From the NCBI GenBank assembly GCA_947503285.1, contig CANNDD010000009.1, forward strand, positions 1-64,000: a stretch of 64,000 bases of DNA, read 5' to 3'. The stretch comes from an uncultured Croceitalea sp. GTDB lineage: Bacteria; Bacteroidota; Bacteroidia; Flavobacteriales; Flavobacteriaceae. Under the pieces are notes generated by a model. The model was not told where the DNA came from, ran no database searches, and was given only the letters and a program-made list of their open reading frames with translations. This document shows positions 44,544-46,732 of this stretch, in pieces; the stretch's first letter is position 1; each line of letters opens with the position of its first letter. A program made the position numbers and the translations under genes.

Positions 44544-45152
44544 ATGTTCTACCTTATCATTGATATTTTAGGAACGATAGCCTTTGCCATTTCGGGGGTA
44601 TTGGTCGCCATGGAAAAGAAACTCGACCTTTTCGGTGTGCTGATTATTGCTTTCGTAACCGCAATTGGTGGCGGTACCTTACGTGATTTGCTCATAGGAA
44701 ATACCCCTGTGGTCTGGATGCGTGATGCCACTTATGTCATTACCATTGTTATCACCGTTGCCGTGGCCATCGTGTTCGTCAATCAGCTAAAGTACTTGCG
44801 AAAATCACTATTTCTATTCGATACCATTGGTATCGGTCTATACACCCTTATTGGTGTTGAAAAAGGAGTTGAAGCTGGCCTATTACCCATAATGTGTATC
44901 GCCTTAGGAACGATTACGGCGAGTTTTGGGGGTGTAATACGTGATATACTCTGTAATGAAATTCCTGTAATATTCAGAAAAGAAATTTATGCAACGGCCT
45001 GTATTCTGGGTGGTGTAAGCTATTTTTTGCTGACAAGGCTCCCCATAGCCCAAAGTTACGCGTATTCGGGCGCTATCTTAGTGGTCATCGGTTTACGATT
45101 GCTTGCGGTCAAGTTCAAAATTCGGTTGCCCAATATTTACGGCAGCCAGTAA
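44544..45152 (+). CDS. Trimeric intracellular cation channel (TRIC/YicG) family protein
   Basis: A 202-residue protein with about seven helices. Two inverted halves carry the repeated motif: AIGGGTLRDLLIGNTPVVWMRD in the first and SFGGVIRDILCNEIPVIFRKE in the second, the signature of UPF0126/TRIC-type channels. These form homotrimeric cation pores. It probably shares a transcript with the RDD gene. Downstream, at 45153-45279, nothing was recognised. Confidence 0.87.
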   Translation: MFYLIIDILGTIAFAISGVLVAMEKKLDLFGVLIIAFVTAIGGGTLRDLLIGNTPVVWMRDATYVITIVITVAVAIVFVNQLKYLRKSLFLFDTIGIGLYTLIGVEKGVEAGLLPIMCIALGTITASFGGVIRDILCNEIPVIFRKEIYATACILGGVSYFLLTRLPIAQSYAYSGAILVVIGLRLLAVKFKIRLPNIYGSQ

Positions 45153-45279
45153 CCGGTAGTCAGTATTTTCAATATCCAGTCTTATATAGGATTGTCGTAA
45201 ATTGTTAATACGATGAAGAAGGAAACCAATAAGAATACGCTTAGATAATTGGGTTTTAGGGTTAAAAGAAGTTCTTTCA

Positions 45280-45360
45280 CTAACCACTAACCACTAACCA
45301 CTAACCACTAACCACTAACCACTAACCACTAACCACTAACCACTAACCACTAACCACTAA
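45280..45360. repeat. Tandem array of 11 CTAACCA heptamers
   Basis: Eleven perfect copies of CTAACCA run from 45280 to 45356, followed by a partial CTAA to 45360. It is TGGTTAG on the other strand and abuts the stop codon of the cyclophilin gene on the minus strand, in the gap between two convergent genes. There is no base variation between copies. Each unit carries a stop codon (TAA on plus, TAG on minus), so every frame closes within 21 bases on both strands. The minus strand has GG every seven bases. Confidence 0.97.
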
Positions 45361-46092
45361 TTACAATACTTCCGCCCTTAAGATATATACATTTTGCATA
45401 GGCCAATCCCCTTCATCCACTTCAACCTGATTGATTTTATCAACAATATCCATACCTTCTATTACACGACCAAAAGGGGTATAGTTGCCATCTAAATGAT
45501 ATGATCCGGGTTTGGTGACCACTATAAAGAATTCGTACGGGGAAGCCAATTTATGTGGATTGTCCCTTTCACTACTGGGCATTGAAATGGTTCCCCTATG
45601 GTGTTTATGTCCTTTTCGGGTGTCGGGCGGTAACAGATACCTTCCTATTTGGCCTCTCTTTTTGCCGGTTTCCCTGTTGTCTGAATTGCCGCCTTGAATG
45701 ATAAAATCTTTGACCACACGATGGAACATGGTATTTTCGAAGTAGCCTTTTTTTGCCAAATAAATAAAGTTCGCCTTGTGATATGGTACGTTATCATAGA
45801 GCTGTATGGTAAAGCTTCCCATGGTTGTGGTCAATTTTACTTTATCCTCTTTCAGGGTTTTCGCATATTCAAAGAAAAAATCAATAGCGTTTTCTTCGGT
45901 CAGGACAAATTCTTCCTCTTCTTTAGTTACGGGCAAAGAATCAATTTCTTTTACTTGAACCCCTTGTTCGGTCGATGGGGGCGCGCCTTTGGTTGAATTA
46001 ACGTCTTTGTTCGCCTTATCCGCCTTATCCCCACATGAGATCAAAAAAAATAGTGTTATACTTGTCATTAATGAAATCGTAGCTCTAAGCAT
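45361..46092 (-). CDS. Cyclophilin-type peptidyl-prolyl isomerase lipoprotein
   Basis: About 243 residues with a lipoprotein signal (lipobox LISC). The core has the active-site FHRVVKDFIIQGG, the conserved Phe and Gln, and an insert (GKKRGQIGRYLLPPD) before GHKHHRGTISM. The usual QFFI reads EFFIVV (YEFFI). A Bacteroidota cyclophilin with this insert is expected to keep isomerase activity. The start codon overlaps the divergent Nudix gene's start (both inside CATG, 46090-46093). The stop abuts the heptamer array. Confidence 0.87.
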   Translation of the reverse strand: MLRATISLMTSITLFFLISCGDKADKANKDVNSTKGAPPSTEQGVQVKEIDSLPVTKEEEEFVLTEENAIDFFFEYAKTLKEDKVKLTTTMGSFTIQLYDNVPYHKANFIYLAKKGYFENTMFHRVVKDFIIQGGNSDNRETGKKRGQIGRYLLPPDTRKGHKHHRGTISMPSSERDNPHKLASPYEFFIVVTKPGSYHLDGNYTPFGRVIEGMDIVDKINQVEVDEGDWPMQNVYILRAEVL

Positions 46093-46732
46093 GAATTTTG
46101 AAGATTTTTGCGAACAGGTCATAAAAATAAAAAATCTGCCCTTGCCCGGTAACGAATCGCACTATAAAATGGAACCCGCTGTTCGAAAAAAGTGGCGTGA
46201 GTCTAAGAATACATTAGGTCAAAATCCTAAAAAGGCTGCTGTGATGGCATTATTCTACCCAGATGCAAATCAGCTGACCAAGCTTTTATTAATTCTCAGA
46301 AAAACCTATCAGGGGGTACATTCGAATCAAATTGGTTTTCCGGGGGGTAAGGTTGAGGAATCGGATAGCGATCTATTGTTTACCGCCAAACGTGAGACTT
46401 ATGAAGAGGTAGGCGTATTCCAAGAAGAAGTAGAGGTCATTAAAGAATTGACGGAGGTGTATATTCCACCGAGCAATTTTTTGGTAAAACCTTTCGTGGG
46501 TCTATATAAAAAACCGAAACCTTTTAAGATCCAAGAAGAAGAAGTGGAAGCATTGGTTGAGGTGCCGTTGGTCGATTTTCTAGATAAAACGAATGAAATC
46601 GAACAACGAATGACTACTTCTTACGCCACCGATATTCTTGTACCAGCCTTTAAATTAAATGGTTATACGGTTTGGGGGGCTACGGCCATGATGTTAAACG
46701 AAATCAAAATGCTTTTGCGTAGAGTGCTTTAG
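46091..46732 (+). CDS. CoA pyrophosphatase-like Nudix hydrolase
   Basis: A 213-residue protein. The coenzyme A pyrophosphatase motif LLLILRKTYQGVHSNQIGFPGGK precedes the Nudix box, which ends in RETYEEVGV; the box has Asp where the first Glu usually stands. Such enzymes cleave CoA or related acyl-CoA to 4'-phosphopantetheine and adenosine bisphosphate. The ATG at 46091 gives the family N-terminus; an upstream in-frame start at 45989 would add an implausible 34 residues. A TATACTTG at 46057-46064 could be its promoter box. Confidence 0.85.
   Translation: MNFEDFCEQVIKIKNLPLPGNESHYKMEPAVRKKWRESKNTLGQNPKKAAVMALFYPDANQLTKLLLILRKTYQGVHSNQIGFPGGKVEESDSDLLFTAKRETYEEVGVFQEEVEVIKELTEVYIPPSNFLVKPFVGLYKKPKPFKIQEEEVEALVEVPLVDFLDKTNEIEQRMTTSYATDILVPAFKLNGYTVWGATAMMLNEIKMLLRRVL

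Follow-up and report, generated by a model that had tools for sequence, protein, structure and literature searches.

Heptamer arrays at coding edges: a perfect CTAACCA repeat beside a cyclophilin gene in an uncultured Croceitalea sp.

Why would a long, perfect tandem array start on the very next base after a stop codon, and how might it have come to lie there? The question is raised by a locus in the genome of an uncultured Croceitalea sp., within a stretch of 64,000 nucleotides that we refer to as the window. At 45278-45360, Tandem Repeats Finder reports a perfect period-7 array of 11.9 copies with 100% identity. Its score of 166 is the highest of any tandem array in the window, the runner-up reaching 63. 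The array reads (CTAACCA)n on the plus strand and (TTAGTGG)11.9 on the minus strand, which is the sense strand of a 253-aa ORF at 45361-46122. Based on a preliminary description of this DNA and on the sequence, we take this ORF to encode a cyclophilin-type peptidyl-prolyl isomerase. Its TAA stop codon is the complement of 45361-45363, and the minus strand reads TAA(TTAGTGG)n, with the array following the stop immediately (0 nt). The preliminary description correctly recognized a perfect CTAACCA array touching the cyclophilin stop, although its start position, 45280 instead of 45278, was off by two. It was also right that each unit carries stop codons in both directions, TAA on the plus strand and TAG on the minus strand.

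The array occupies one side of a 208-bp gap between convergent genes. On the other side is a membrane-protein ORF (44544-45152, plus strand, 202 aa) that, judged by eye, presumably belongs near the TRIC/UPF0126 family, which it resembles. The remaining 125 bp of the gap (45153-45277), which we call the core, is ordinary sequence. A telomere-like GGGTTTTAGGG lies at 45251-45261, upstream of the array and exactly where it had been placed before; it is a single short match, and we attach no significance to it. Three degenerate 7-base steps, CCAGTAA CCGGTAG TCAGTAT, can be read by eye on the plus strand at 45146-45166, where they span the stop codon of the convergent gene. They are weak as a repeat and are possibly the remains of a decayed second array.

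A chance origin of the window array is excluded. When up to two mismatches are allowed, the window contains 11 matches to two CTAACCA units, compared with 0.37 in shuffles of the window. A sample of 152 kb of intergenic DNA, drawn from this species and two congeners, contained 12 period-7 runs of at least three copies, compared with 0.1 in dinucleotide shuffles. Within the same sample, periods 4 to 6 were near or below expectation, there were no runs of at least three copies at periods 8 to 13, and the rows at period 14 were the period-7 arrays again. Seven is the sole long period enriched between genes.

The window array has many relatives in its own genome. Across the 4.34-Mb genome we read some two dozen period-7 arrays between genes, their units differing and none of them inside a called ORF, which bears out the earlier suggestion of a genome-wide intergenic repeat. 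The preliminary description had proposed counting CTAACCA arrays elsewhere in the genome, and that count found them at C1:193717-193796 and also where contigs C3 and C14 begin (the latter two are possibly one locus). A pattern search, together with a genome sample chosen by location (800 kb of this genome plus the window, and 800 kb of two congeners), gave the other units of this genome: TTAGGTG, TTAGGAG, TTATGGT, TTAGGGT, TTAAAGG, TTACTGA, TTACTCC, TTAATGG, TTCGTTG, GTTTCTA and CAGTAGA. Units vary between loci, and some recur. We considered TTA as a universal unit core and rejected it. The pattern search at first returned 127 matches against 9 for the control, but the reversed control then often gave equal numbers across 120 family genomes, and TTA is absent from three of nine arrays in the location-chosen sample.

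Gene names used for loci outside the window (DnaK, RuvA-type, DAHP-synthase-type, prephenate-dehydrogenase, LytTR and gamma-carbonic-anhydrase) were read by eye from translations and are presumptive. One array, at C1:230146-230217, consists of ten TTTAGGG copies lying 4 nt upstream of a RuvA-type start codon. The plant-type telomere repeat has a period of 7 and the G-rich strand TTTAGGG. This array has exactly that unit, yet it is internal to its contig beside the RuvA-type start, and there is no sign of an end function. At its start (C1:1-241), the same contig carries a 97-bp tandem repeat in 2.5 copies. The genome also has 16 matches to the 23S rRNA-IVP family (PF05635), compared with 1-7 in congeners. 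A heptamer run lies within 1.5 kb of a 23S rRNA-IVP gene at four of 30 loci fetched, all four in congeners. A link between arrays and these four-helix-bundle genes was rejected because the loci fetched from this genome had no array within 1.5 kb.

The draft assembly has six contig ends that fall within heptamer arrays. Judging from these ends, arrays longer than roughly 80-100 bp seem to break this assembly, as would be expected if it was made from short reads, so longer arrays are probably under-represented and the length distribution cut off.

Comparison with congeners indicates how such gaps change. The cyclophilin and membrane-protein stops lie 9-13 nt apart, with no array between them, in four of seven congeners, as against 208 bp here, and (CTAACCA)3 was not found in any of the seven. 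The junction between the LytTR regulator and gamma-carbonic-anhydrase genes is about 15-30 nt long in four congeners; here it reads stop, (AAGGAGT)7, about 80 bp, (CTAACCA)11, ATG. Between the DAHP-synthase and prephenate-dehydrogenase genes (C1:56698-56744), this genome has about 7 (6.7) perfect TTCGTTG copies, and the orthologous gap in a congener (C9:42015-42180) has a mixed TTSGTTG array of about 26 copies by visual count. The arrays present in this gap in both species, together with the LytTR junction, indicate that arrays are heritable, that they change by whole units and that they can be gained together with flanking DNA. The expectation that copy number would prove labile therefore holds in part, namely between species, as seen in the two copy numbers at the orthologous gap and in the absence of the window array from the congeners examined.

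It is common for arrays to reach a coding edge, both in this genome, where other units do so too, and in the family and across phyla. Among the matches listed, exact (CTAACCA)5 arrays occur in Bacteroidota, Cyanobacteria, Planctomycetota, Victivallales, Clostridia, Gammaproteobacteria, Chloroflexota and others; these comprise 130 arrays in 115 stretches, and none of the arrays is inside a called ORF. In this set, where genes are longest ORFs and several stretches come from the same genomes, the orientation at gene edges is strikingly uniform. Within 10 nt after stops, 41 arrays of the matches listed read TTAGTGG in the sense direction and three read CTAACCA; within 10 nt before an ATG, 14 read CTAACCA and one reads the opposite. 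The two results follow one rule among the matches listed: the 3' end of the C-rich strand points toward the adjacent coding edge, whether start or stop, in 55 of 59 cases (p = 1.7e-12, a value that assumes independent arrays). For that end, a gene is no more than 10 nt away in 58 of 116 arrays, compared with 8 of 103 for the opposite end, and 24 of the 55 CTAACCA arrays that face a stop extend into the end of the ORF (both among the matches listed). The preliminary description had named many genomic copies between convergent genes as the sign of a repeat family; the arrays are not specific to convergent genes, since they sit before starts too and not just after stops.

The rule is not confined to CTAACCA. 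The phyla set was picked by that one heptamer, so its other units are chance neighbours, lying near CTAACCA arrays; among the matches listed they show the same polarity by 14 to 1. In this genome the count is 18 to 2, with both exceptions touching genes at both ends, and at family loci it is 11 to 3. We considered several possible sources of the polarity. Base composition at gene edges was rejected as its cause, because C and G are equal after stops and the skew is insufficient. Growth polarity, with young copies at the gene end, was also rejected: degenerate copies are as common at one end as at the other (p = 0.10), and no growing end emerges from them. A fixed phase at the gene end, such as a template would produce, was looked for and not found, and two-copy duplications that might represent nascent arrays were too few to judge. 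In a viral contig collection, (CTAACCA)4 arrays are present in fourteen stretches, the contigs being viral by collection label. Compared with 6 and 0 for two permutations, these 14 stretches are too few to conclude that viral contigs prefer CTAACCA.

The window array is probably a heptameric microsatellite, that is, a long simple sequence repeat, lying in a stretch of about 200 bp between genes that nearly touch in congeners. Replication slippage would add and remove copies in intergenic DNA, and whole-unit change between species is seen at one locus. An array that reaches a coding edge would be halted there by selection, and stop codons within the unit would make overlap with a gene end harmless. 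Next to the cyclophilin gene, the array would most likely be no more than a 3' untranslated spacer of variable length, without a dedicated regulator. However, slippage by itself accounts for neither period seven nor the single orientation at coding edges. It also leaves unaccounted for the presence of a 125-bp core where congeners have a gap of about 10 nt, and the existence of two cores that are each shared between unrelated loci.

The first of these shared cores is an 80-bp sequence beside CTAACCA arrays at C1:193797-193879 and C3:70-147, with 88% identity over 52 nt. A search of 58 other genomes did not find it, and weak matches to the C1 copy at C4 and C3 turned out to be ordinary DNA. The second is found at C2:145426-145596 and C14:44519-44712, again unrelated loci, with 88% identity over 50 nt. 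At both loci it enters a CATAAAC array at the same base. It ends in TATTTTTG, which we take to fit the Bacteroidota -7 promoter consensus TAnnTTTG. Two cores, each at two loci, provide a concrete lead on the origin of arrays, and some array gaps thus resemble, in their behaviour, a small dispersed element whose ends are heptamers.

By extension, the whole gap in the window could be a small dispersed insertion element consisting of a G-rich array, a core and a C-rich array, with the second array of the window copy decayed. We regard this as unlikely. Among the matches listed, gaps with several arrays are ordered from G-rich to C-rich in 23 cases and in reverse in none, whatever the gene directions, and 27 have equal polarity at both ends. 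A second heptamer run lies on the far side in 29 of 68 gaps of the matches listed, compared with 1 after shuffling. The array-core-array arrangement at the LytTR/gamma-carbonic-anhydrase junction, where congeners have so little DNA, is also as expected of an insertion, as are the two locus pairs whose shared cores run into the same heptamer array. However, none of the other array gaps read in this genome contains a partner of the window core, and each shared core is known from only two loci. Neither a terminal signature nor a target duplication or transposase came to light, and the far-side arrays of the C2/C14 pair differ (TTAGGTG and TTAGGAG), which fits local array growth. The array gaps of four further stretches, L183, L187 and L219 (all three from Pseudoalteromonas) and L279, share array-adjacent sequence, up to 97% over 74 bp, which may reflect orthology or dispersal. 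A more general proposal seems doubtful to us: small intergenic elements would be dispersed in many phyla, with heptamer arrays as their outward-facing ends and not as slippage accidents, and a putative machinery would spread and lengthen the arrays and fix both period seven and polarity.

The preliminary description had raised a two-tier G-quadruplex and a role in termination or mRNA stability. Such a regulatory 3' element, whether a quadruplex or another structured RNA, would terminate transcription or stabilise the cyclophilin mRNA. The minus strand does have GG every seven bases and is in contact with the stop codon, and quadruplex-forming G-rich heptamers in Xanthomonas sit near stop codons (PMC4692102). 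However, the window array has GG runs only, and quadruplex-aware folding selects no quadruplex. Shuffled sequences fold as well as the gap RNA does (z = 0.35), a hairpin formed by the whole gap was rejected on the same grounds, no terminator-like site was found, and Rfam gave no match. Arrays are found equally upstream of starts. Units without GG follow the placement rule equally (11 to 1), so the rule cannot in general be due to quadruplexes. We therefore consider a regulatory 3' element improbable at this locus.

Even less probable is a phase-variable contingency locus, in which copy number would tune expression of cyclophilin or of the convergent gene. Instability is to be expected of pure arrays this long, and copy number does vary between species at the DAHP-synthase gap, but the window array is 3' of both genes' stop codons, and other arrays adjoin housekeeping genes (DnaK, RuvA-type, DAHP-synthase-type) and not surface genes. 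An assembly artefact or collapsed repeat might be suspected in a draft assembly with contig ends inside such arrays, but it is hardly credible because the same array type is present in single-chromosome finished genomes such as Maribacter halichondriae NZ_CP107030, and the 83-bp array is resolved within a contig.

The microsatellite reading places the window array in a known class of intergenic heptameric simple sequence repeats without demonstrated function: it has a 7-bp tandem unit in at least three copies, arrays of its kind occupy many intergenic loci, and its strand placement is the published one. Prokaryotic long simple sequence repeats of 5-11 nt were surveyed by Mrazek et al. (2007), who, as cited in PMC4679880 and PMC4692102, found heptamers to be the most abundant long unit in most genomes and proposed slippage as the cause. 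As relayed in those two papers, this is a statistical class, described without polarity or shared cores. This genome shows the preference of long bacterial microsatellites for heptamers in pure form, for period 7 alone.

Closest in placement are the GGGAATC heptamers of Xanthomonas and GGGGA(C/T)T heptamers of Nostoc (Rehm et al. 2015, PMC4692102), which are tandem, intergenic and present at many loci per genome. Immediately upstream of starts their G-rich strand runs antisense, and immediately downstream of stops it runs in the sense direction, with cases that overlap the stop codon (PMC4692102). The window array is similar, with its G-rich strand in the sense direction 0 nt after a stop. However, those units contain GGG or GGGG and form G-quadruplexes, whereas TTAGTGG has GG only and no run of at least three G. 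In addition, units vary between loci in this genome, while papers of that type report a single consensus unit for each genome.

TAACTGA direct repeats, reported from Beggiatoaceae, Cyanobacteria and five Bacteroidetes (MacGregor 2015, PMC4679880), are likewise intergenic tandem heptamers. They have stop codons in all three frames and are mostly directed at the start codon. Contigs break at these arrays, and related strains differ in copy number by steps of 7 nt (PMC4679880). The arrays described here resemble them in being tandem heptamers between genes at which contigs break. The window array differs in its unit, CTAACCA, in its 11.9 copies and in its position 3' of a stop, since TAACTGA sets mostly have 2-6 copies and lie mainly upstream of starts (PMC4679880). 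Much of the placement reported for TAACTGA fits the polarity rule, although orientations are mixed in a Microcystis sample (PMC4679880).

What is new here, relative to these systems, is that the placement rule extends to units without GG and that reversed array pairs were not seen among the matches listed. A rule that reaches beyond quadruplex-formers shifts the explanation toward the origin of arrays or their tolerance at gene edges. The main interest of the window array and its relatives is that, in many unrelated bacteria, an array has a fixed direction relative to the neighbouring gene.
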